From NCBI RefSeq assembly GCF_007644045.2, contig NZ_VMDW02000047.1, forward strand, positions 1 through 64,000: DNA of 64,000 bases, in the 5' to 3' direction. The notes under the pieces are model-generated. The model made no database searches and was not told where the DNA came from. It saw only the letters and a program-made list of their open reading frames with translations. The translations under genes were made by a program, and so were the position numbers. Source of the DNA: Vogesella urethralis. Its GTDB lineage: Bacteria; Pseudomonadota; Gammaproteobacteria; Burkholderiales; Chromobacteriaceae. Positions 4,997 through 17,192 of this stretch are shown here, piece after piece. How positions within the stretch are numbered: position 1 is the stretch's first letter; each line of letters starts with the position of its first letter.

Positions 4997-5223
4997 CCGA
5001 CCCTCCCCGCAAGGCTTTTACCCAGCGTAGAAGCCGCCATTGCCCACGGCAAGCTATCGCGTGTTTTTATCGAAAAGTGGCCGCCCCACCCCGCTGCAGC
5101 AGCGCTCAGTGCCGCACCCGGCGGGCGTGTCCGTCGCGGCAGGCGGACACGCCAGGCGGACGGGTGTGCCGCCGTCATGGCGGATGGCCGCGCAGCAGGC
5201 CGCGCCCTGCCGGCAAACCGTGG
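4997..5223. other. Intergenic between two solute-binding-like genes
   Basis: 227 bases. No gene, and no clear terminator or promoter that I can point to. The stretch is long enough to hold a separate promoter for the downstream (4301-4996) gene. Confidence 0.4.
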
Positions 5224-5979
5224 CTACCAGCCACGCGGGCAGGCCACCCCTTTCAGCAAGCGGGCATACTCGGCGCTGGCCTTAAGCCGCTGCAGGCCGC
5301 GATTGAAATCCGCCAGCAAGGCGGCGCTGCCCGGCAACTTGCGCGGCAGCAGCAGATGGGTAGTGAATTTGTCGGTCAGCAAGCGCGGATGCGCCTGCAG
5401 CTTTTCGGCCTCGGCCACCGAAAAGTGCCTGGCCAGCAGATAACACGCCACATTGCGCTCGATCGGCACCAGGTCTACCCGATGCGCCAGCAGTTTGCGC
5501 AAGGCCAGCAGGTCATCCGGCGTGGCGTCGCCTCGCAATTTGCCCTCGCGCAGCCCTTGCCACAGCTCGGGCGTGTACGTGTAATTGGCGATGATGGCCA
5601 GCCGGTACGGCTGCAGATCAGCCAGCGTTGTCCAGTCGAACGCGGTATCGCGGCGATGCACGAACACCCACTGCTCGGTCAGCACCGTGTCGCTTACCAG
5701 AAAGCGGCGGTTACGCGCCTCGCTGAAGCCCCAGTACGCGGTAGCATCCCAGCGGCCATTGGCCGTCTCTTCCAGCGCCCGCGTCCACGGCATGAAGTGG
5801 TACGTCACCGTATGCCCGGCCAAGGCAAACGCCTGGCGCACGATCTGCAACGCCACGCCCTGGTCGCCGCGCTCTTGCGTGGCGTAGGGCGGCAGCTCGC
5901 CGGTGGCAATACGCAAGGCATGCCCCTGCGCCAACGGCAGTAACAGCAGCAGCAACAGTACACACAGGGTCTTGGGCAT
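5224..5979 (-). CDS. Periplasmic amino-acid-binding-like protein (family 3)
   Basis: 251 residues starting with a signal peptide rich in leucine (MPKTLCVLLLLLLLPLAQG) and probable cleavage near GHA. Mature sequence features typical of family 3 solute-binding proteins are LRIATGELPPYA at the start, then FMPWTRALEETANGRWDATA, a classic first-lobe motif, and later PYRLAIIANYTYTPE. No transporter genes adjoin it, so the ligand and partner are unknown. Orphans of this type often occur in tandem in Neisseriales and pseudomonads. A pseudo-operon with the 4301-4996 gene is possible but the gap is 227 bp. Confidence 0.7.
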   Translation of the reverse strand: MPKTLCVLLLLLLLPLAQGHALRIATGELPPYATQERGDQGVALQIVRQAFALAGHTVTYHFMPWTRALEETANGRWDATAYWGFSEARNRRFLVSDTVLTEQWVFVHRRDTAFDWTTLADLQPYRLAIIANYTYTPELWQGLREGKLRGDATPDDLLALRKLLAHRVDLVPIERNVACYLLARHFSVAEAEKLQAHPRLLTDKFTTHLLLPRKLPGSAALLADFNRGLQRLKASAEYARLLKGVACPRGW

Positions 5980-6165: not shown

Positions 6166-6702
6166 TCATTCAATCCAGGCGGCACACCGGAGCTCACCCT
6201 CGTCGACACCACACCAATCTGGCGGATAGATGCCAGCTGCCACATAACGATGAAAAGACGATAACGGCCAATTCGCCACACACGACACCAGGCCGTGCTT
6301 TAGCGGGTTGCGATGGATGTAATCGACGTGACGGGAAAAATCTTGCTCGTCGCGCAGGGCATGCTCCCAATATCGGCGCTGCCACACCCCACGCTCCCCC
6401 TTGCTGATACGGCTTGCCGATGGGGGCAGCAGATCACCAACACAACGGGAAAAACCGGCCTTGATACGACGCCAGCGCTGCGGGTACGCCGTATCTCCCT
6501 GCGGCAGCGTCCAGATACAGTGCAGATGGTCCGGCATAATCACCACTGCCGGCATCTCGAAGGGAAAATCACGCATCACCACACGAAAAGCAGCACGCAG
6601 ATGATCCACATGCCGCACCAGCGCATCCGAACGGCGATCCACCAACGCCACCGTGAAGAAATAGCTGCCACCGGGCACATAATAGCGACGGTAATTGGTC
6701 AT
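6166..6702 (-). CDS. REP-associated tyrosine transposase (RAYT, Y1/HUH family)
   Basis: 178 residues of the IS200-like Y1 transposase superfamily. The N-terminus NYRRYYVPGGSYFFTVAL is typical of RAYTs. The HUH metal site is HLH in VIMPDHLHCIWTLP, and the catalytic tyrosine is expected in HVDYIHRNPLKHGL. RAYT enzymes are thought to nick and move REP hairpins. Directly upstream of its start (6735-7237) lies an array of REP-like units, the expected partner arrangement. The gene is complete and shows no frameshift. Flanks show no IS-type inverted repeats of their own. Confidence 0.9.
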   Translation of the reverse strand: MTNYRRYYVPGGSYFFTVALVDRRSDALVRHVDHLRAAFRVVMRDFPFEMPAVVIMPDHLHCIWTLPQGDTAYPQRWRRIKAGFSRCVGDLLPPSASRISKGERGVWQRRYWEHALRDEQDFSRHVDYIHRNPLKHGLVSCVANWPLSSFHRYVAAGIYPPDWCGVDEGELRCAAWIE

Positions 6703-6734: not shown

Positions 6735-7237
6735 CGTAGGATGGGTGCAGCGCAGCGGAACCCATCACCACACATGCACCGGCATTCGATGGCATAGCGC
6801 CAGCACCCGCACACCCCGCAGTACAAGCCGCAGGAAACGTAGGATGGGTGCAGCGCAGCGAAACCCATCACCACACATTCACCGGCATTCGGTGGTACAG
6901 CACCAGCGCCCGCACACCCGGCAGCACAAGCCGCAGGAAACGTAGGATGGGTGCAGCGTAGCGGAACCCATCACCACACATTCACCGGCATGCGGTGGTA
7001 CAGCACCAGCGTCCGCACACCCCGCAGCACAAGCCGCAGGAAAACGTAGGATGGGTGCAGCGCAGCGGAACCCATCACCACACATTCACCGGCATTCGGT
7101 GGTACAGCACCAGCGCCCGCACAAGCCGCAGGAAAACGTAGGATGGGTGCAGCGCAGCGAAACCCATCAACACATATTCACCGGCATTCGCCAGCATTCG
7201 ATGGGTTACGGCGCCAGCGCCTCCACCCATCCTACGC
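6735..7237. repeat. REP array: five direct units and one inverted unit next to RAYT
   Basis: Units of about 32 bases with the core GTAGGATGGGTGCAGCG and a downstream CCCATC occur at about 6735, 6838, 6941, 7045 and 7137, a period near 103 bases, each able to fold as GATGGGT/ACCCATC. The spacers (ACCACACATTCACCGGCATT and on) are themselves repeated, so the array grew by tandem duplication. An inverted unit closes it at 7199-7237 (GATGGGTTACG to CACCCATCCTAC). The core is the widespread proteobacterial GTAGGATGGGT REP family, here beside its likely transposase. Confidence 0.85.
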
Positions 7238-7240
7238 GGT

Positions 7241-7360
7241 TTGGCGACGCAAAAGAAAGTACCCCGCCGCCGCGCGGAAAGCGGCAGATCATCACGCCGC
7301 GCAACGGCACGCAAAACAAAAAGGTTGGCCGCAATATCGTGACAGCATGCGGCCAACCTT
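7241..7360. repeat. 120-bp dispersed repeat, copy A
   Basis: Begins TTGGCGACGCAAAAGAAAGT, continues through a GC-rich stretch and ends in an inverted pair of the GGTTGGCCGCA motif. Nearly identical to copy B at 7968-8087, in the same orientation. Confidence 0.8.
7319..7360. repeat. Inverted pair of GGTTGGCCGCA motif (hairpin)
   Basis: GGTTGGCCGCA at 7323-7333 and TGCGGCCAACC at 7348-7358 form a stem extended by flanking A/T to about 14 bp, followed by Ts. It may serve as a terminator. It belongs to the motif family discussed in the findings. Confidence 0.7.
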
Positions 7361-7526
7361 TCATTTTGTCGTGCAATCACATGACAGGTCTTGAATCCGC
7401 TGCGCGGATGATGATTACAGCCGGTTCCGCCCGGCAGGCAGGAAGGGGGCGGGTCGCCGCCCCCTTTCATCCCCCCTCGCCCCCGCGGTCCGCGAAACCC
7501 CGGCAAAAAGCCCACCGCAAGGCGCT

Positions 7527-7905
7527 GCCGAACTCGCCCTTCGCTAACGGCTCCGGGCTCAAACAAATCGGCCGCTTGCGCGTGCGAATTTTCGATTCGC
7601 CCAGCACAATCCTTGCGGCAGACTTTTTACCGGCGCTCCCCAAGGGGGCATGGGTCGCAGCACAAAGTTGGCCGCAGTAACGTAAATGTTTGCGGCCAAC
7701 CGCACAGGGTACGGTAAACGTTAGGCTTCACTTACGTGGTGGGCACAACCTCCGGTTTTGCCCACCCTACGTCAAACCACTACCGCACCGGCGCCGCCCT
7801 GTCCCGTTGGCGCGAGCCGGGTAAAACGGTTTGCCCCAGGTTTTAAGCAGCCGATTTGTTTGAGCCCCGCGCCGTTAGCAAGGGGCGAGTTCGGCGGCGC
7901 CTGGG
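7527..7905. repeat. Inverted copies of a GCCGAACTCGCCC element
   Basis: The sequence from about 7527 (GCCGAACTCGCCCTTCGCTA and on to CTCAAACAAATCGGC) reappears inverted at about 7848-7905 (GCCGATTTGTTTGAGC to GGGCGAGTTCGGC). About 250 bases lie between the two arms, with another inverted motif pair at 7667-7701. I recall this element as a common dispersed repeat in beta- and gammaproteobacterial intergenic DNA. Confidence 0.65.
7665..7703. repeat. Inverted pair of GTTGGCCGCA motif
   Basis: GTTGGCCGCA at 7667-7676 faces TGCGGCCAACC at 7691-7701 across a 14-base loop. Same arrangement as at 7319 and 8048. Confidence 0.65.
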
Positions 7906-7967
7906 GCGGGCCGTTTGACACGGGGTTTCGAGCAGCCCCGGGTCGCCTTTTCTTTGGGTACTTTCTT

Positions 7968-8087
7968 TTGGCGACGCAAAAGAAAGTACCCCGCCGCCGC
8001 GCGGAAAGCGGCAGATCATCACGCCGCGTAGCGGCACACCAAACAAAAAGGTTGGCCGCAATACCATAAAGGCATGCGGCCAACCTT
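7968..8087. repeat. 120-bp dispersed repeat, copy B
   Basis: Near-identical to copy A at 7241-7360. Here the start is preceded by its own complement (ACTTTCTTTTG before GCGACGCAAAAGAAAGT), making a further hairpin at about 7960-7987. Ends in an inverted motif pair, GGTTGGCCGCA at 8050-8060 and TGCGGCCAACC at 8075-8085. Confidence 0.8.
8048..8087. repeat. Inverted pair of GGTTGGCCGCA motif (hairpin)
   Basis: A 13-bp stem formed by AAGGTTGGCCGCA and TGCGGCCAACCTT with a 14-base loop, inside repeat copy B. Confidence 0.7.
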
Positions 8088-8118
8088 GCGGGGCGTGGCA
8101 ACCGTGGGGATTCGGAGC

Positions 8119-8219
8119 GTAGCCCGGATAAGGCGCAGCCGCATCCGGGGAATACTTCCAACCACCGCGTACCAGATAATAACCAACCCCGGATGCGCCG
8201 TTGGCTTATCCGGGCTACG
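8119..8219. repeat. Inverted pair of GTAGCCCGGATAAGGC-type REP
   Basis: GTAGCCCGGATAAGGCGCAG and on to CATCCGGGG at 8119-8150 faces CCCCGGATGCGCC to CTTATCCGGGCTAC at 8187-8219. This is the widespread CCCGGAT REP family in a BIME-like head-to-head pair, immediately downstream of the AT-rich cassette. It is unrelated in sequence to the RAYT-adjacent GTAGGATGGGT units. Confidence 0.75.
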
Positions 8220-8243
8220 CACTAGGGGCTAAAATTTCAAAAA

Positions 8244-9266
8244 TTACTTCCGGCCTTTAAACATCACAAATCCAATTAAAAGCAAACCAATAAAAGCCAC
8301 AAAAAATGCCAAGAACCTAGAAAGCAACTCAAAGTCACTAAAGACCTTCAGGATACCATCTTGCCCATAAAGACCATAAATAAAACCAAAAGCTATTAAA
8401 AAGAATCCATACACAATTATTATTCTGTCTCGCAAGCCAAAATACTGCAAACGACTTTCAATAGCAGATGGCGCCAGAGCCCTTCTCTCAAAACGAATCC
8501 TACCCGTAAAACCCTCTTTATCGACCAGCCTATTCCAAACCTGCGCCAATGCTTCTTTGTAAAGAGTCCTAGAGATTTCATCCCAAAAATTCTTAGTCCC
8601 GAAGCTGCGCATAACATCCATATCAAATGGTATATTACCAAGGTGTGTTATACCCCCAGACAACGACGACCCTTCACTTTTGTTAGTCACCCTGTAAATT
8701 GGCGAATCAGAATCCAACCTCAGCTGTTCAATTAAGTTATCTGTAGTTATTTTTGATATATCGTCTGGCTCTTCAACACAAATTGTCACATCGGAATACA
8801 AATGACTAGCTGCAATCAATTCATCATAACCAGCTCTACTGTCGAGAAAAATATAATCATAATCACCATCAATCTTATCAATCAACCCTGATAACAACCT
8901 ACCAGCCTCGGCTTTACTGTCCGGCATTAAATCCTGAAATTTAAGAATTTCATCAACTCGAGCAACGGATGGAAGAACATTAAAATTCCTGTATCGCGAA
9001 ATGGAAAATTTACTTTTACCTGAGCGATCAACATCACCTTTATCTATAAAATATTCAGAAACCGACATTTCATCAATATCTGTCAGCTGAATGCGCTCTT
9101 TCTTATGAAAATATAGCAGTGCTGTCAATCCTCTCACAAAAACATCAAGATCAACAACAACAACAGAGTGATCCTCCGCACCCAGCATATCAGCCATGAC
9201 TGCAGTCAACAGAGTTTTCCCTGTACCACCCTTACCACTAACTATATTGATAATTTTTGCAGCCAC
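8244..9266 (-). CDS. ParA/MinD-type P-loop ATPase with C-terminal membrane hairpin
   Basis: 340 residues from a GTG start at 9266, which follows the upstream stop by one base and has AGGGGC as ribosome site inside the upstream gene. An earlier TTG at 9290 is less likely. Deviant Walker A GKGGTGKT (11-18), Walker A' region VVVVDLDVF (Asp39) and Walker B YIFLDSRAGYDE (Asp142) place it in the SIMIBI ParA/MinD class. The DSRxG form recalls the KGGVGR-variant ATPases found in conflict systems. Residues about 281-300 and 317-336 are two membrane segments with a lysine-rich end, an unusual tail for this class. The composition is strikingly AT-rich against its neighbours, suggesting transfer. Function unknown. 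It is probably translationally coupled to the small membrane protein. Confidence 0.75.
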   Translation of the reverse strand: MAAKIINIVSGKGGTGKTLLTAVMADMLGAEDHSVVVVDLDVFVRGLTALLYFHKKERIQLTDIDEMSVSEYFIDKGDVDRSGKSKFSISRYRNFNVLPSVARVDEILKFQDLMPDSKAEAGRLLSGLIDKIDGDYDYIFLDSRAGYDELIAASHLYSDVTICVEEPDDISKITTDNLIEQLRLDSDSPIYRVTNKSEGSSLSGGITHLGNIPFDMDVMRSFGTKNFWDEISRTLYKEALAQVWNRLVDKEGFTGRIRFERRALAPSAIESRLQYFGLRDRIIIVYGFFLIAFGFIYGLYGQDGILKVFSDFELLSRFLAFFVAFIGLLLIGFVMFKGRK

Positions 9267-9267
9267 G

Positions 9268-9606
9268 CTATTTGCCCCTATAAATAACAAAGATAGAAAT
9301 CAAACCTTGAAAAAAAACCCCAAGAACTAAAACAATAGGAGCAAGCACTTCCAAAGCCGCGTAATTAACCGCACCCCAATCGCCCCAGTATTTATACAAA
9401 ACAATTGGCAATAAAAAGAATGAAAACCAAATCAGTCCGACAGAAATTTTCCCATAGTTGTTATCAACCATCGACTTTCTTTTAGTTAGCTTGGCAAAAA
9501 ATTCAAAATAAACATAAATCCACAAATGCCCAGAAAAGAAAGCCATAATCAATACCGCCGGCGCAGTCACAAAGCCAAATATATACTCAATCGCTTTCTT
9601 TTCCAT
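9268..9606 (-). CDS. Small multi-pass membrane protein of the AT-rich cassette
   Basis: 112 residues with three likely membrane segments: about 9-32 (FGFVTAPAVLIMAFFSGHLW), 55-72 (VGLIWFSFFLLPIVLYKY) and 82-108 (ALEVLAPIVLVLGVFFQGLI). A short charged loop (AKLTKRKSMVDNNYGK) separates the first two. I recognise no family. It is the first gene of a two-gene unit: its stop is one base from the start of the ParA-like ATPase. Both genes share an AT-rich composition unlike valS on one side and the REP region on the other. The pair probably works together at the inner membrane. Role unknown. Confidence 0.65.
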   Translation of the reverse strand: MEKKAIEYIFGFVTAPAVLIMAFFSGHLWIYVYFEFFAKLTKRKSMVDNNYGKISVGLIWFSFFLLPIVLYKYWGDWGAVNYAALEVLAPIVLVLGVFFQGLISIFVIYRGK

Positions 9607-9628: not shown

Positions 9629-9670
9629 GGAAGTGAATTTAAAGGGCTTTCGCCCTTTAAATTCACTTCC
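9629..9670. terminator. Perfect 19-bp hairpin between valS and AT-rich cassette
   Basis: GGAAGTGAATTTAAAGGGC at 9629-9647, loop TTTC, and its exact complement at 9652-9670. It lies between the 3' end of valS (minus) and the start of the AT-rich cassette (minus), so it should end valS transcription. It may also mark one edge of the inserted cassette, because the stem itself is AT-rich. Confidence 0.7.
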
Positions 9671-9678
9671 CAGATAGG

Positions 9679-12501
9679 TTAAACCAACTTGGCGAGCTGC
9701 ACCTTGATCTTGTCCAGCTTGTCATTCAGCTCGGCCAGCTGCGCCTTGTCGCGCTCTACCAGGTGCGCCGGGGCTTTATCGATGTAGCCCGGTTTCTCCA
9801 GTTTGGCGGTCAACTTGGCCAGCTCTGCTTCCACCTTGCCCTGCTCTTTGGTGAGGCGGGCGGTTTCGGCGGCTTTGTCCACTTCCACCTTCAGCATCAG
9901 GCGGGCGTCGCCGGACATGGCTACCGGGGCGTCGTCGGCCGGCAGTGCCGCTACGATGCTGCCTTCGGTCAGGCGGGCCAGCAGCTTCAGGTACGGCACG
10001 AAGTCGGCCACCGAGGCGTCGGCGGTTTCGATGAACAGCGGCGCTTTTACCGCCGGGCCGATGCCCATTTCGCCGCGCAGGTTGCGCACGGCGTTCACCA
10101 TGTCCTTGAAGGCATCCATGCGCGCGTTGGCGGCGGCATTGATCTTCTCCGGAACGGCTACAGGCCACTGCGCCAGCATGATGCTGTCGGTGTGCTTGGC
10201 GTTGGCCAGCGGGGCCACGGTTTGCCACAGTTCTTCGGTGATGAACGGCATCAGCGGGTGGGTGAGGCGCAACGCCACTTCCAGCACGCGCACGATGGTG
10301 CGGCGGGTGGCACGCTGCTGTGCTTCGTTACCGTTTTGCAGCTGTACCTTGGCCAGCTCCACGTACCAGTCGCAGTACTCGTTCCAGATGAATTCGTAGA
10401 TCACCTGGGCGGCGAGGTCGAAGCGGTAGGTTTCCAGCGCGTTGGTGACGTCGGCTTCGGCTTGCTGCAGGCGGCCGATGATCCACTGGTCAACAAAGCT
10501 GAATTCCAGCGGCAGGGTTTCGTCCTGGCCGCAGTCTTTGCCTTCCACGTTCATCATCACGAAGCGGGTGGCGTTCCACAGTTTGTTGCAGAAGTTGCGG
10601 TAGCCTTCGGCGCGTTTGAAGTCGAAGTTCACCGAGCGGCCCAGCGTGGCGTAGCTGGCCATGGTGAAGCGCAGCGCGTCGGTGCCGTAGGCCGGAATGC
10701 CGTCCGGGAACAGCTTTTCGGTGGCTTTGGCGATGGCAGGGGCTTTTTCCGGGCGGCGCAGGCCGGTGGTACGTTTTTCTACCAACGGGCCCAGGGCGAT
10801 GCCGTCGATCAGGTCGACCGGGTCGATGACGTTGCCTTCCGACTTCGACATCTTCTTGCCTTCGTGGTCGCGCACCATGCCGTGGATGTAAACGTCACGG
10901 AACGGTACTTTGCCGGTGAAGTGCTTGGTCATCATGATCATCCGGGCAACCCAGAAGAAGATGATTTCGTAACCGGTTACCAGCACGTTGCTGGTAACGA
11001 AGGCGTTGAGGTCCGGCGTGTCTTGCGGCCAACCCAGGGTGGAGAACGGCACCAGAGCCGAGCTGAACCAGGTGTCCAGTACGTCCTGTTCGCGGCGCAG
11101 GGTCTTGCCCGGCGCTTTGGCCTGGGCTTCGGCTTCGGTGCGGCCAACGTAGATGTTGCCGTCTTCGTCGTACCAGGCCGGAATCTGGTGGCCCCACCAC
11201 AGCTGGCGGCTGATACACCAGTCCTGGATGTTGTTCATCCACTGGTTGTAGGTGTTGACCCAGTTTTCCGGGATGAAGCGCACTTCGCCACTGGCCACGG
11301 CGTCGATGGCTTTCTGGGCGATGGACTGGCCGGTGGCGTCGCCGTCACCCACTTTGCTCATCGCCACGAACCATTGGTCGGTCAGCAGCGGCTCGATCAC
11401 GGTACCGGTACGGTCGCCGCGCGGCACCATCAGTTTGTGCGGTTTGGTTTCCAGCAGCAGGCCCTGGGCTTGCAGGTCGGCCAGCATGGCCTTGCGTGCG
11501 TCGGCGGTGCTCAAGCCGGCATAGGCAGCCGGCAGCTCGATGCTGCCCTGGGCGCTGCCGTCAAAGCCGAATACTTGCGCTTTGGTCAGGATGGTGGCGT
11601 CCAGGCTCATCACGTTGATCAACTGGGTGCTGTGGCGCTTGCCGACTTCGTAGTCGTTGAAGTCGTGGGCCGGGGTGATCTTGACGAAGCCGGTGCCGAA
11701 TTCTTTGTCGACGTACTCGTCGGCAATCACCGGAATCTGGCGGCCGGTAAGCGGCAGCTCGACCAGCTTGCCTACCAGGTGGGCAAAGCGTTCGTCGGTG
11801 GGGTTCACCGCCACGGCCACGTCGCCAAGCAGCGTTTCCGGACGGGTGGTGGCCACGGTGATGAACTCGTCGCTGCCCACTACCGGGTATTTGATGTGCC
11901 ACATATGACCGTCTTCTTCCTCGGAAACCACTTCGAGGTCGGAGATGGCGGTGCCCAGCTTGGCGTCCCAGTTGGACAGGCGCTTGCCACGGTAGATCAG
12001 GCCTTGCTCGTACAGGCGCACGAACACTTCGGTCACCACGTCGGCGCGCACGTCGTCCATGGTGAAGTATTCACGGGTCCAGTCTACCGAGCAGCCGACA
12101 CGGCGCATCTGGCTGGTGATGGTACCGCCGGATTTTTCTTTCCATTCCCATACCTTGGCGGTAAAGGCGTCGCGGCCCAGGTCGAAGCGGCTGATGCCCT
12201 GCTCGGCCAGCTGGCGCTCTACCACGATCTGGGTGGCGATACCGGCGTGGTCGGTACCCGGAATCCACACCGTGTTGTCGCCCTTCATGCGGTAGTAGCG
12301 GGTCAGGCCATCCATGATGGTCTGGTTGAAGGCGTGGCCCATGTGCAGCGTACCGGTCACGTTGGGCGGCGGCAGCTGGATGGCAAAAGACGGCTTGGTG
12401 GTGTCCATGTGCGGCTTGAAGTAGCCGGACTGTTCCCATTGATCGTACCAGCGACGTTCGATGTCGCCCGGCTCGTAACTCTTGGCAAGTTCCATGGTCA
12501 T
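9679..12501 (-). CDS. valS: Valine--tRNA ligase
   Basis: 940 residues, full length for a bacterial class Ia valyl-tRNA synthetase. The HIGH-type motif is in [16 protein letters not shown] near the N-terminus and the KMSKS motif in KKMSKSEGN. The editing domain and the C-terminal coiled coil (ending [10 protein letters not shown]) are all present. It charges tRNA-Val in the cytoplasm. Several starts are possible: TTG at 12525, ATG at 12501 and ATG at 12495. The last two fit family N-termini ([20 protein letters not shown]) and no strong ribosome site decides between them. A copy of TGCGGCCAACC lies inside the gene at 11024-11034. Confidence 0.97.
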
Positions 12502-12693
12502 GGTGTGAATTCGATAGTGAGGCAAAAATGGCTGAAATTATAAACCGATCTGCTGCACTGCGTCCTGCCCGCTGCCAAGAACGTCTTGCAAACCGCACAA
12601 ACGATGCGACAACGGACATGAAAGCCATGTATATATGGAAGTGATCCCCACTTTTTTGGCACGGTTGGCCGCAACGCGGCCGTGCAGACACGC
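12502..12693. other. Divergent promoter region, valS / diguanylate cyclase
   Basis: 192 bases that must hold both promoters. It carries one copy of GGTTGGCCGCA at 12663-12673, close to the cyclase start. No ribosome-binding consensus is evident directly before 12694. Confidence 0.5.
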
Positions 12694-13911
12694 ATGAGCA
12701 ACAAAATCCTACTGGTAGAAGATAACACCGCGGTGCTGCGCACCATGCAGCGCATCATCGAGAACGACGGCTTCGAGGTGGTGTGTGCCACCACGCTGGC
12801 CGAGGTGCAGGCCATCCTGCAGTACGACGCCGATTTCATGGCCTGCGTACTGGATTACTGCCTGCCCGATGCACCGGACGGCGAGGCACTGCCGCTGGTG
12901 CTGAAACAGCAGATCCCAACCATCGTACTGACCGCCCGCAGCGACATGGAAACGCGCGAGAAAGTGTTGCTGCAGCCGGTGGTGGACTACGTGCCCAAAG
13001 ACACGCCAGCCGCCTTCGAATACACCATCAAGATGGTGCGCCGCATTAAGGCCAACCCCGGCATCCGCGTGCTGGTGGTAGACGATTCGGCCACCATCCG
13101 CGGCTATCTGCGCCAGCTGTTGCGCCGCCATCGTTACGAAGTGCTGGAGGCAGCCGAGGCCGATACTGCGCTGCGCATGTTGCGCGACGACCCCAGCATC
13201 CGCCTGGTGCTGTCCGACCACGACATGCCGGGCAAGAGCGGCGTGGTGATGGTGAGTGAAATCCGCCGCTTCCGCAGCCACGAAGAGCTGGCCATCATCG
13301 GCATTTCCGGCAGCCAGGACCCGGCCATGACCGCCCGCTTCATCAAGGCCGGCGCGGACGACTACCTGAACAAGCCGTTCAACCACGAAGAGTTCTTCTG
13401 TCGCGTTACCCGCAACATCGAGTTCGTGGAAAACTTGCGTGCGCTATCGCGTGCGGCCAACGAAGACCCGCTGACCGGGCTGCCGAACCGCCGCTATTTC
13501 TTTGAAAACGTGCTGAAGCAGACACGGCCGTTTGGCGTGGCGATGGTGGACATCGACCACTTCAAGGCCATCAACGACCAGTTTGGCCACGATATCGGCG
13601 ACCTGGCGCTGAAACTGCTGGCCGACCTGCTGCGGGCGCACTTCCCCGGCCGCCACATTGCGCGCTTTGGCGGCGAGGAGTTCGTGATCCTGCTGCAGGC
13701 GGAACGCGAGCAAGACATGCAGCCGGCGCTGGAAGCCTTCCGCGAGCAGGTATCGCAGATGGTCTACCCCACCGCCATGGGCGACTTGCGCTTTACGTTA
13801 AGCGTGGGCGTGGCCGCCGGCCAGAACGACATCAGCGCGCTGCTGAAGCTGGCCGACGACCGCTTGTACAAGGCCAAGCAACAGGGCCGCAACCGGGTGT
13901 GCATGGACTGA
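12694..13911 (+). CDS. Diguanylate cyclase with two receiver domains
   Basis: 405 residues. Receiver 1 (about 4-120) has the acidic pair in LLVEDN, phospho-Asp54 (CVLDYCLPD), Thr80 and Lys102. Receiver 2 (about 125-245) has LVVDDS, Asp175 (VLSDHDMPG), Ser205 and Lys227. A GGDEF domain follows (about 255-405) with an intact RFGGEEF (326-330), so it should make cyclic di-GMP from two GTP. The RxxD inhibitory site usually found five residues before GGDEF is not present (FPGRHIA instead), so product inhibition may be absent. The layout resembles PleD but with active-looking residues in both receivers. ATG at 12694 is chosen over a GTG at 12682. It starts 192 bases from the divergent valS. No kinase is adjacent. 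Confidence 0.9.
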   Translation: MSNKILLVEDNTAVLRTMQRIIENDGFEVVCATTLAEVQAILQYDADFMACVLDYCLPDAPDGEALPLVLKQQIPTIVLTARSDMETREKVLLQPVVDYVPKDTPAAFEYTIKMVRRIKANPGIRVLVVDDSATIRGYLRQLLRRHRYEVLEAAEADTALRMLRDDPSIRLVLSDHDMPGKSGVVMVSEIRRFRSHEELAIIGISGSQDPAMTARFIKAGADDYLNKPFNHEEFFCRVTRNIEFVENLRALSRAANEDPLTGLPNRRYFFENVLKQTRPFGVAMVDIDHFKAINDQFGHDIGDLALKLLADLLRAHFPGRHIARFGGEEFVILLQAEREQDMQPALEAFREQVSQMVYPTAMGDLRFTLSVGVAAGQNDISALLKLADDRLYKAKQQGRNRVCMD

Positions 13912-13936
13912 ACACCCACGGTCGTCTTGTAGAAAA

Positions 13937-13963
13937 CAAAAGCCCGCAGATTGCGGGCTTTTT
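13937..13963. terminator. Rho-independent terminator, bidirectional
   Basis: AGCCCGCA, a three-base loop and TGCGGGCT, flanked by A and T runs. It lies between the convergent diguanylate cyclase and SDR genes. The motif TGCGGCCAA follows at 13971. Confidence 0.85.
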
Positions 13964-13981
13964 GCTGGGCTGCGGCCAAGC

Positions 13982-14815
13982 TCAGGCAGCCTTGTTCAGC
14001 ACCCAATCCAGCCAGCGCGTAGGCAGCAGGCGCTTCAGGTACCAGAACACCTTGGTCGGCGTGGTCACCCGGTAGCGTGCCGCCGGCCGTGGCGAGGCCA
14101 GCGCCTTTTCCACTACCGCCAGCACGGCAGTGCCCGGCAGCGTGAACGGCGCGGCGTGGCCTTCTTTCTTCAGCCGTGCCAGCTGCTTCTGGTAGCTGTC
14201 GCGGTGGGCGCTGGCGTCGATGTCCACATTGGCCAGAAACTTTTGCAGCGCATTGGGGCGGAAACGGCTTTCGATCGGGCCCGGCTCGATCAGGCTGACA
14301 TGGATACCGGTGCCAGCCAGCTCCAGCCGCAGCGTGTCGCACAGGCCTTCCATCGCATACTTGCTGGCGTTGTAGGCGCCACGGTATTTCATGGCGGCAA
14401 AACCCAGTACCGAGCTGTTGAACAGGATGCGGCCACTGCCCTGGCGCCGCATGACCGGCAGCACGGCGTTGGTGAGTTCCCAGGCGCCGAACAGGTTGGT
14501 TTCAAACTGGGCGCGCATGGCCGGGCGCGAAATGTCTTCTGCCGCACCGGGCTGGCCGTAGCCTGCGTTGTTGAACAGCGCTTCCAGTCGGCCACCGCTA
14601 CGGCGCAGTACCTCGTCCAGCGCCTGGCGAATACTGGCGCTGTCGTCTACATCCAGTAGCAGGGCATCGGCAAAACCGTCGGCCTGCAGGCGGGCAACGT
14701 CTTCGGCACGGCGGGCGCTGGCAAACACACGCCAGCCTTGCTGCTGCAGGCCGCGTGCCACGTCCAGGCCGATACCGCTGGAGCAGCCGGTGATGAGGAT
14801 GTTTTTTTGCGCCAT
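13982..14815 (-). CDS. Classical short-chain dehydrogenase/reductase (SDR)
   Basis: 277 residues, a cytoplasmic NAD(P)-dependent oxidoreductase of the classical SDR fold. The cofactor loop is TGCSSGIG near residue 9, NNAG follows near residue 87, and the catalytic Ser...YNASK is near residues 135-154 (FNSSVLGF and AYNASKYAMEG). The C-terminal part after residue 185 resembles YbbO-like and other lipid- or sterol-type SDRs (LIEPGPIESRF). The substrate cannot be told from sequence. It is a single gene, convergent with the cyclase gene and sharing its terminator. Confidence 0.85.
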   Translation of the reverse strand: MAQKNILITGCSSGIGLDVARGLQQQGWRVFASARRAEDVARLQADGFADALLLDVDDSASIRQALDEVLRRSGGRLEALFNNAGYGQPGAAEDISRPAMRAQFETNLFGAWELTNAVLPVMRRQGSGRILFNSSVLGFAAMKYRGAYNASKYAMEGLCDTLRLELAGTGIHVSLIEPGPIESRFRPNALQKFLANVDIDASAHRDSYQKQLARLKKEGHAAPFTLPGTAVLAVVEKALASPRPAARYRVTTPTKVFWYLKRLLPTRWLDWVLNKAA

Positions 14816-14962
14816 CAGTGAACCTGTGAAGAAAGGGGTGAGTCAAATTCGCGCATATGTAACAATATGTACATCGCAGCCGGACAGTACGCATGATTAA
14901 CAAAACCGGCAAATAATAACAAATCCGCAACCACTGCCTTCACTCAAGGAGTATTCAAGACA

Positions 14963-15934
14963 ATGGAACAGGCCCTCCCCTCGATCGGATCGCCTTTCTT
15001 CTACACGGTGTTCTTCGTGGCCGTGCTGATCATGATCGTCATCGATATGGTGGCGCTCAAGCAGAGCGGTTCGCACAAAGTCTCCATCAAGGAGGCCGCC
15101 ACCTGGTCGGCCATCTGGGTTGCCGTGGCGTGTGCCTTCGGCGGCTGGCTGTGGTGGTACCTGGCCACCGACCCGGCCTATGGCGAAGCCGTTGCCAACC
15201 AGAAAACCCTGGAGTTCTTTACCGGCTACGTGATTGAAAAATCGCTGGCGGTAGACAACATCTTCGTGTTCCTGATGATTTTTGCCTTCTTCAAGGTGCC
15301 GGCGGAATACCAACGGCGCGTGCTGCTGTACGGCGTATTCGGCGCCATCATCCTGCGTACCATCATGGTGTTCCTGGGCGCGGCGCTGGTGAAGGAATTC
15401 AGCTGGATCCTGTACGTGTTCGGCGCCTTCCTGCTGTTTACCGGCCTGAAGATGATGCTGCCGGAAAAGGACGAAGAGCAGGACCTGGCCAACAACGGCC
15501 TGCTGAAGTTCCTGCGCAAGCACCTGCGCATGACCGACGAGTACCACGGTGAAGCCTTCTTCGTGGTGAAAAACGGCCTGCGCTACGCTACCCCGATGTT
15601 TGTGGTACTGGTGTTCGTCGAGCTGTCGGACGTGGTGTTTGCCGTAGATAGCATTCCGGCCATCTTCGCCGTCACCATGGACCCGTTCATCGTGCTGACG
15701 TCCAACATCTTTGCCATCCTGGGCCTGCGAGCGATGTTCTTCCTGCTGGCCGACGTGGCCGACCGCTTCCACCTGCTGCGCTACGGCCTGGCCATCGTGC
15801 TGTCGTTCATCGGCATGAAGCTGCTGCTGCTCAAGGTGTACCACATCCCGGTAGCGATCTCGCTGGGCGTGGTGTTCAGCGTGATTACCGCCTCGGTCAT
15901 CGCTTCGCTGATGTTCCCCAAGAAAGCCGGCTAA
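14963..15934 (+). CDS. TerC/Alx-family membrane protein
   Basis: 323 residues with about nine membrane segments. TerC signatures are VIDMVALKQSG, the conserved EKSLAVDNIFVFLMIF with its acidic residues inside the membrane, and ELSDVVFAVDSIPAIFAVT. Family members such as Alx are linked to manganese export and to metalation of secreted enzymes, and TerC itself to tellurite resistance. The soluble loop in the middle (PEKDEEQDLANN) is typical. AAGGAG stands ahead of the ATG. I looked for a yybP-ykoY manganese riboswitch in the 147-base leader and saw no convincing match. A terminator follows at 15941. Confidence 0.88.
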   Translation: MEQALPSIGSPFFYTVFFVAVLIMIVIDMVALKQSGSHKVSIKEAATWSAIWVAVACAFGGWLWWYLATDPAYGEAVANQKTLEFFTGYVIEKSLAVDNIFVFLMIFAFFKVPAEYQRRVLLYGVFGAIILRTIMVFLGAALVKEFSWILYVFGAFLLFTGLKMMLPEKDEEQDLANNGLLKFLRKHLRMTDEYHGEAFFVVKNGLRYATPMFVVLVFVELSDVVFAVDSIPAIFAVTMDPFIVLTSNIFAILGLRAMFFLLADVADRFHLLRYGLAIVLSFIGMKLLLLKVYHIPVAISLGVVFSVITASVIASLMFPKKAG

Positions 15935-15940
15935 GCCCGA

Positions 15941-15964
15941 GCCCCCGCCCCGGCGGGGGTTTTG
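15941..15964 (+). terminator. Rho-independent terminator after terC-like gene
   Basis: CCCCCGCC, two bases and GGCGGGGG followed by TTTTG. A strong GC stem with a short T tract. Confidence 0.85.
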
Positions 15965-16072
15965 CTTTGGGCCGGCCGTATCGCGTGCATGTCATGCAGG
16001 TTGCCGCTTTGTTGCGAAGCGGAAAACCCCTACAATGGCGGCCAACCTTATCGATGCAGAAGGACAAGCGCC

Positions 16073-16306
16073 GTGGCCAAAACCGCCAAAGCCCAGGCCA
16101 GCTTCGAAAGCGCGCTGGCGCAGCTGGAAGACATCATCCAGGCAATGGAAGGCGGCGACCTGCCGCTGGATACCGCCCTGACCTCGTACAAGCAGGGCAT
16201 CGAACTGATCAAGTTCTGCCAGGGCAAACTGGCAGACGCCGAACAACAGCTGCGCGTGCTGGAAAACGACGAACTCAAGCCGCTGGACCTCACCGATGGC
16301 CAATAA
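16073..16306 (+). CDS. xseB: Exodeoxyribonuclease VII small subunit
   Basis: 77 residues, the usual size for XseB, the small subunit that binds the XseA nuclease. Family pattern: SFESALAQLEDIIQAMEGGD, then LPLDTALTSYKQGIELIKFC, then C-terminal DAEQQLRVL. The start is GTG at 16073, with AGAAGGA at suitable spacing; the open frame upstream of this is not part of the gene. It overlaps ispA by 11 bases, and dxs follows, the usual xseB-ispA-dxs operon. A copy of GCGGCCAACC lies in its leader at 16038-16047. xseA is not in the window. Confidence 0.95.
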   Translation: MAKTAKAQASFESALAQLEDIIQAMEGGDLPLDTALTSYKQGIELIKFCQGKLADAEQQLRVLENDELKPLDLTDGQ

Positions 16307-17192
16307 CCCCTTTACCGGCTGGATGACCCACACCCAGCAAACCGTGGAAAGCACGCTGGAAGCGCTGCTGCCTTCCGCCGAGCGCGCACCGCAGGTGCTG
16401 CACGACGCCATGCGCTACAGCACGCTGCAAGGCGGCAAGCGTGTGCGCCCGCTGCTGGCGTTTGCCGCCGGCGAGCTCACCGGCGCCGACGCGGCCAACG
16501 TGGCACGCGTGGCCTGTGCCGTGGAGATGATCCACGCCTACTCGCTGGTACACGACGACATGCCGTGCATGGACGACGACGTACTGCGCCGCGGCAAGCC
16601 CACCTGCCACGTGCAGTACGACGAAGCCACCGCCCTGCTGGTGGGCGACGCGCTGCAAACGCTGGCCTTCGACGTGGTAGCCACCCCGCTGCCGGGCGTA
16701 GACGCCAGCCGCCAACTGGCGATGGTGAAACTGCTGGCCCATGCCAGCGGTCACGCCGGCATGGCCGGCGGCCAGGCCATCGACCTGGCCAGCGTCGGCA
16801 AGGCGCTGGAGCAACCGCAGCTGGAATTCATGCACATGCTGAAAACCGGCGCACTGATCCGCGCCGCCGTGCTGTTGGGTGCCTACTGCGGCCAGGCAAT
16901 GAGCAGCGCAGAACAAGACGGCCTGGACCACTTTGCCAAGCGCATGGGGCTGGCTTTCCAGGTGGTGGACGACGTGCTGGACTGCGAAGCCGATACCGCC
17001 ACGCTGGGCAAGACCGCCGGCAAGGATGCGGCCAACGACAAGCCTACCTATGTAAGCCTGATGGGCCTGGGCGAGGCCAAACAGTTTGCCCGCGACCTGT
17101 ACGACGACGCGCTGGCGGCGCTGGCGCCGTTTGGCGACCGTGCCGAACGCCTGAAACAGCTGGCCGACTACATCGTGGCCCGCTCGTTCTGA
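16296..17192 (+). CDS. ispA: (2E,6E)-farnesyl diphosphate synthase (geranyltranstransferase)
   Basis: 298 residues, a short-chain trans-prenyl diphosphate synthase that condenses IPP with DMAPP and GPP to form FPP. The first aspartate-rich motif is [17 protein letters not shown] and the second is [25 protein letters not shown] and KTGALI are also typical. In the cytoplasm it feeds quinone and undecaprenyl synthesis. Coupling with xseB by overlap and position just before dxs give the standard operon. Confidence 0.95.

Follow-up and report, generated by a model that had tools for sequence, protein, structure and literature searches.

Spatial-switch ATPases are known chiefly for their part in cell division and the partition of plasmids, and those of the MinD, FlhG (FleN) and ParA type carry a deviant Walker A P-loop, KGGxGK[T/S], with a signature lysine. 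Small membrane proteins encoded in a two-gene unit are familiar from RexAB-like pairs, in which a sensor is combined with a membrane effector. MinD/ParA-like domains also occur as effectors, predicted to be inactive, in the multi-domain VMAP-type conflict systems (PMC7159879, in the part of the text available), and P2-like phages carry defence hotspots at the gpA-gpQ and fun loci (PMC9122126 and PMC9519451, likewise in part). Here we analyse a pair of adjacent genes for a small membrane protein and a MinD/ParA-type ATPase in a 64,000-nucleotide stretch of Vogesella urethralis (contig NZ_VMDW02000047.1, positions 1 to 64,000; hereafter the window), where the pair occupies a slot after the valyl-tRNA synthetase gene valS. 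Because copies of the pair occur in an integron, other mobile elements and prophages, and because the slot after valS is rich in defence genes, we regard it as a well-supported candidate defence system. We did not find the pair described in the open-access literature searched, and the available portions of PMC7159879, PMC9122126, PMC13092281, PMC9519451 and PMC12824646 contain nothing on the pair or the valS slot.

The ATPase of the pair has the P-loop and signature lysine of MinD, FlhG and ParA. It differs from them in its two predicted integral C-terminal helices, where they have a free end or an amphipathic helix, in DSRAG where they have D-P-A-G, in always having a small membrane protein as partner, and in being carried by mobile elements. 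With RexAB-like pairs the unit shares the two genes and the small membrane protein, but that protein has no PADLOC match and is paired with a MinD-type ATPase; we set the two apart on these grounds, without a direct comparison with RexAB. Like the VMAP-type systems, as far as the available text describes them, the pair would place a MinD/ParA-like domain in a conflict context, but its ATPase keeps its motifs within a compact two-gene unit. Small units are exchanged between conserved phage genes at the P2-like hotspots, as are the prophage copies of the pair, although these lie between genes read as gpS and gpV, apart from the two loci described in the portions available.

The two proteins of the pair

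Both genes are on the minus strand. The gene for the small membrane protein comes first (9268-9606, 112 amino acids, ATG start), followed after a single base by that for the ATPase (8244-9266, 340 amino acids, GTG start). Their G+C content is 0.38, against 0.627 for the whole window, and a scan in 1363-base segments at steps of 50 bases found 23 segments with G+C below 0.47, all overlapping the pair, which is thus the sole AT-rich patch of the window. The preliminary description, made from the sequence alone, had reported this layout, the low-GC composition against high-GC flanks, the GKGGTGKT and DSRAG motifs and three plus two membrane segments; all of these were recovered, the segments as predictions on which hydropathy and weak structural models agree.

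The deviant Walker A motif GKGGTGKT, with its signature lysine, spans residues 11-18 of the ATPase (9213-9236, minus strand) and is invariant in 8/8 sequences, and DSRAG at residues 142-146 (8829-8843, minus strand) aligns to D-C-P-A-G of archaeal MinD. The nucleotide domain has the MinD/ParA fold; it matched AAA_31, ParA and CbiA over cut-off in Pfam and scored 70.5 bits against a PHROGs family. The MinD equivalog TIGR01968 was far from reached (44.4 bits, cut-off 212.9). No NCBIfam model matched over cut-off, the best being the KGGVGR-motif variant AAA ATPase NF047398 (residues 4-159, 59.5 versus 90 bits), from which the family of the pair differs in keeping the P-loop K-T (KGGTGKT). At the C-terminus hydropathy marks two hydrophobic segments, at residues about 282-300 and 318-336, in agreement with helices 278-300 and 313-336 of the predicted model, which together suggest a membrane hairpin over residues 278-336 (8259-8435, minus strand). 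Two such segments are predicted in 8/8 ATPase homologues, and the amphipathic C-terminal helix without integral membrane segment that characterizes MinD proper is not predicted here.

The small protein has three hydrophobic segments by hydropathy, and a weak predicted model agrees. Three segments were found in 6/8 small proteins and two in 2/8 at the hydropathy cut-off used, several start codons being uncertain. All seven other loci have a homologue upstream of the ATPase, 24-33% identical to the small protein of the window, and the window and Vibrio europaeus proteins are clearly related (E 4e-13). No Pfam model matched over cut-off, the best being Fig1 at 13.3 versus 25.3 bits, and NCBIfam and PHROGs gave no match. 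The profile searches placed neither protein in a named system, in keeping with the earlier statement that no described system fitted.

Distribution and mobile settings of the pair

A scan of genome contigs gave the first relative, in V. europaeus, whose ATPase is 59% identical to that of the window over residues 3-340. Altogether the pair was found at eight loci, with the two genes adjacent and both AT-rich in 8/8, and ATPase identities to the window protein of 54-59% in the seven other copies. The small gene always lies directly upstream of the ATPase gene, with a 4-base overlap in L016, L022, L023 and L024 and a 1-2-base gap in the window, L003, L017 and L018. A profile of the small protein alone retrieved ATPase-bearing loci exclusively (3/3 viral contigs, 3/118 Vibrio genomes), and we looked for copies in a described operon, or as separate genes, and found none.

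The ATPase occurs in 4/196 genomes of the genus Vibrio and in three viral contigs; strong matches numbered 4/329 in Vibrio's family and 1/394 in its order. Two further Vibrio-genus matches (E about 1e-9, confined to residues 2-175 or less) resemble common ParA/MinD proteins and were left out of the count. The other 60 genomes of the family of V. urethralis have no relative at E <= 1e-10, and its own genome was the sole carrier among 300 genomes of its order and 369 of its class (E <= 1e-25) and 150 of its phylum (E <= 1e-14). Neither the window nor the L022 ATPase matched anything among 72,556 plasmid and 50,697 phage records, the plasmid records held no match to the L003 ATPase or the small protein of the window, and E. 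coli genomes gave no match at the DNA level to the L003 or L022 pair. Viral scans returned the same three contigs each time, or no relative. These absences are limited in that most genome sets are samples of larger groups and some searches scored the best 5-10 candidates per genome. Since the wider samples gave nothing more, the ATPase family is rare and sharply bounded, with no intermediate relatives at the thresholds used. The absence from 60 family genomes and the same pairing at all eight loci uphold the earlier proposal of a laterally gained, membrane-bound two-gene unit.

The seven other copies lie in five kinds of mobile setting, namely an integron cassette, three different Vibrio elements and three P2-like prophages. 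The V. europaeus copy (L003) forms exactly one two-gene cassette, between attC-like sites at 5211-5332 and 6834-6957, and is alone there at open reading frames (ORFs) of at least 70 amino acids; the locus has 14 attC-like sites in 15 kb (query site included), and its contig carries an integron integrase over cut-off. In L016 the pair lies near genes read as a PM2-like provirus, and 183 bases upstream on the same strand is a full-length ThsB-type TIR protein (9884-10579, 423 bits). The element around the L017 copy encodes an integrase and HipA, with smpB and a second integrase alongside, by reading. The element holding the L018 copy also carries a PDC-S21 candidate, separated from the pair by one unmatched ORF, and then a type I-B retron (reverse transcriptase and ATPase-Toprim; 10554-16352 for the whole). 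The prophage copies (L022, 7600-9060; L023, 1030-2430; L024, 7600-9030) are flanked by genes read as gpS and gpV and have the opposite strand to them; phage-gene names in these loci and L016 were assigned by reading. Among ten neighbour proteins scanned from the Vibrio loci, four matched defence models.

Two narrower accounts were set aside. We rejected the window pair as an integron cassette, as no attC site like those of V. europaeus occurs in the window (nor in L016, L017 or L018); a cruder pattern scan also found none, and recovered just three L003 sites. A Thoeris-like team of ThsB and the pair was not adopted, since neither reading nor the scan of neighbours revealed a ThsB next to any other copy; no ThsA was recognised by reading among the nearby ORFs of L016.

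The exchange slot after valS

We found valS in 58/61 family genomes and examined the slot in 31, comprising 12 congeners (window included) and 19 genomes of other genera. The slot opens with an AT-rich unit in 21/31. Among congeners 11/12 have such a unit, one or two genes long, after valS, G060 having none; nine of these 11 slots are readable to the far side, G056 ending at the contig end and G051 nearly so. In other genera, where about 1.5 kb was read and an AT-rich start was defined as an average G+C of at most 0.42 over the two opening 250-base blocks, 10/19 slots start AT-rich. The occupants are mutually unrelated except for two cross-genus pairs, HEC-04 (81% identity) and dCTPase (57%).

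Most of these occupants resemble defence genes. Apart from that of the window, 13/20 AT-rich occupants had a PADLOC match of at least 50 bits and 10/20 one of at least 100 bits, lines that were drawn after the scores were known and serve as a guide rather than a rate. Those at 100 bits or more are HEC-04 (twice), dCTPase (twice), Drt9, PD-Lambda-5_B, Orf5/GmrSD, NsnA/PD-T4-2_A, RTasSLATT and, in a second gene, PDC-S15; those at 50-100 bits are PDC-S31, PDC-M18A and PDC-S33. Two further occupants have suggestive Pfam domains, putAbiC in one and AAA_15 in a seemingly broken unit in the other. Five had no PADLOC (E <= 0.001) or Pfam match: L039 518-1273, L041 487-1236, L042 544-1383 with 1380-1799, L063 2459-3199 and L067 380-1498. 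Some occupant reading frames are partial, ending with the stretch analysed. Among ten conserved control genes none reached 50 bits, and one had two weak matches, the best 24.8 (Fisher p 0.0006); these controls were conserved neighbours, housekeeping by reading, rather than AT-rich accessory genes, so that the p-values overstate the contrast. Two occupants, at L045 506-2287 and L047 8628-9440, appear by reading to be broken into two frames, which suggests that slot occupants decay as well as get replaced.

The left flank of the slot in the window is valS (9679-12525, minus strand, named by reading). On the right is a GC-rich block (7991-8013) conserved in 10/10 congener loci, window included, and not seen in the other-genus loci or G060. 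A hairpin (8049-8087) lies at the right end; its motif was found by pattern in 9/10 congener loci (window included) and is also dispersed in the window, and halves of a GGTTGGCCGCA hairpin are scattered over the 6800-8240 region and the rest of the window (15 in 64 kb, both strands). The preliminary description had noted two further repeats flanking the cassette. The hairpin at 9629-9670, between valS and the pair, is indeed perfect (19-nt arms, 9629-9647 and 9652-9670), but congeners show other hairpins at the same place, directly after valS, and so its position is terminator-like and marks no element end. The inverted pair resembling repetitive extragenic palindromes (REP) downstream of the ATPase gene (8117-8150 and 8187-8220, 34 nt, 85% complementary) also exists as reported; it is probably an ordinary genomic repeat, since the window carries a RAYT-like gene, identified by reading, at 6166-6702. 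Elsewhere in the window, at about 686-1390, an IS5-like transposase was read in two open frames. Another contig of the same genome (C86; L019, 1-10000) appears, by reading, to hold a remnant in which tet-type efflux and repressor genes accompany an IS6-like transposase and Tni-like genes, together with a 67-residue integron integrase match (120.5 bits).

Readings of the pair

Taken together, these settings make it very likely that the pair is defence or conflict cargo, and we think it probable that it is specifically a mobile two-gene anti-phage (anti-mobile-element) module. Defence had been one of two functions suggested beforehand, and it draws strong support from the valS slot occupants and from some neighbours elsewhere; for the other, surface organisation, nothing was found among the neighbouring genes, by reading only. 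Several points weigh against the defence reading. Guilt by association cannot separate defence from other cargo, and misjudgement is easy for a rare family at eight loci. The best score of the ATPase in PADLOC-DB 2.0.0 was 27.7 bits, to PDC-M28B and over the P-loop alone (residues 7-53), the small protein matched nothing in PADLOC, and the predicted structures of the two proteins are weak (mean predicted local distance difference test, pLDDT, 60.8 and 63.2). In addition to the placing of the score lines and the choice of controls, 7/20 other occupants stay below 50 bits in PADLOC, several matching models (PDC, HEC) are themselves candidates only, 9/19 other-genus slots are not AT-rich at the start (one judged on 341 bases), and three proteins from two slots that are not AT-rich (L068, L054) gave no match. 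Six of the ten scanned Vibrio neighbours, including both from L017 and both from L003, matched no defence model. Purifying selection seems to act on both genes in L022-L023, the single copy pair with a synonymous rate (dS) for both, where dN/dS by NG86 was 0.040/1.96 and 0.155/1.49 for the two genes, with a dS near 2 close to saturation; four other ATPase comparisons had saturated dS.

How such a module would work in detail can be proposed only tentatively. The likeliest scheme would make the ATPase a MinD/ParA-type switch that its own C-terminal helical hairpin holds in the inner membrane, with ATP driving dimerisation and hydrolysis resetting the switch. The three-helix small protein would be its constant companion in the membrane and would probably deliver the output. 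An infection cue might shift the nucleotide state of the ATPase, whereupon the complex would act either by disturbing the membrane (abortive infection) or by blocking phage entry or assembly at one of the steps that take place there.

The predicted membrane location of both products and the presence of three copies in P2-like prophages would suit superinfection exclusion or another envelope block, in which the DNA of competing phages is kept out and the cell is left alive. Prophages are not the sole location of the pair, however, one copy forming an integron cassette and another filling a chromosomal slot, and to our knowledge most exclusion proteins are single small proteins without an ATPase; we consider such a block unlikely. 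The order of the genes, with that for the small membrane protein first and the second tightly coupled to it, could instead suggest addiction, as could the integron setting, since large integrons carry many addiction cassettes: a toxic small membrane protein would be restrained by the ATPase, stabilising mobile elements. Yet the ATPase is better conserved than the small protein (54-59% versus 24-33% identity to the window proteins), and its invariant active-site motifs leave an enzyme so intact as to be, in our judgement, unusual for an antitoxin, which makes this account quite unlikely.

The absence of ATPase and window small-protein relatives from the plasmid records bears on two other accounts. 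It would suit defence directed at plasmids or conjugation rather than phages, as would the matches of same-slot occupants to general defence models; yet the pair is carried by prophages, whose exchangeable loci are described as anti-phage reservoirs (PMC9122126, in the text available), and we hold a purely anti-plasmid role to be very unlikely. The same absence argues against partition or positioning, in which a ParA-like protein would segregate or place a mobile element or surface structure, as the ParA/MinD fold and the ParA-like partition label of the PHROGs match might suggest. The integron cassette contains just the two genes, with no ParB-like partner within it, and in the other loci the membrane gene is the sole constant neighbour of the ATPase (from ORF lists, no ParB profile having been run). 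Moreover, a membrane hairpin replaces the free C-terminus, and no exopolysaccharide or secretion operon was read among the window neighbours. We therefore give partition very little credence.

Returning to the anti-phage module, it is possible, if somewhat short of probable, that the pair represents a new defence type, in which a MinD-type ATPase held in the membrane by its own helical hairpin switches a dedicated small membrane protein on infection. On this view the slot at valS would be a so far undescribed site of defence exchange across the family, with the pair as one of its occupants and those that lack a match as further new defence genes. If confirmed, a spatial-switch ATPase class would join the bacterial immunity toolkit, in a 1.4 kb unit small enough for full dissection. 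The valS slot is in its own right a helpful discovery tool, for its AT-rich occupants within one family mostly match known or candidate defence genes, and its unmatched occupants are for that reason well-motivated defence candidates.
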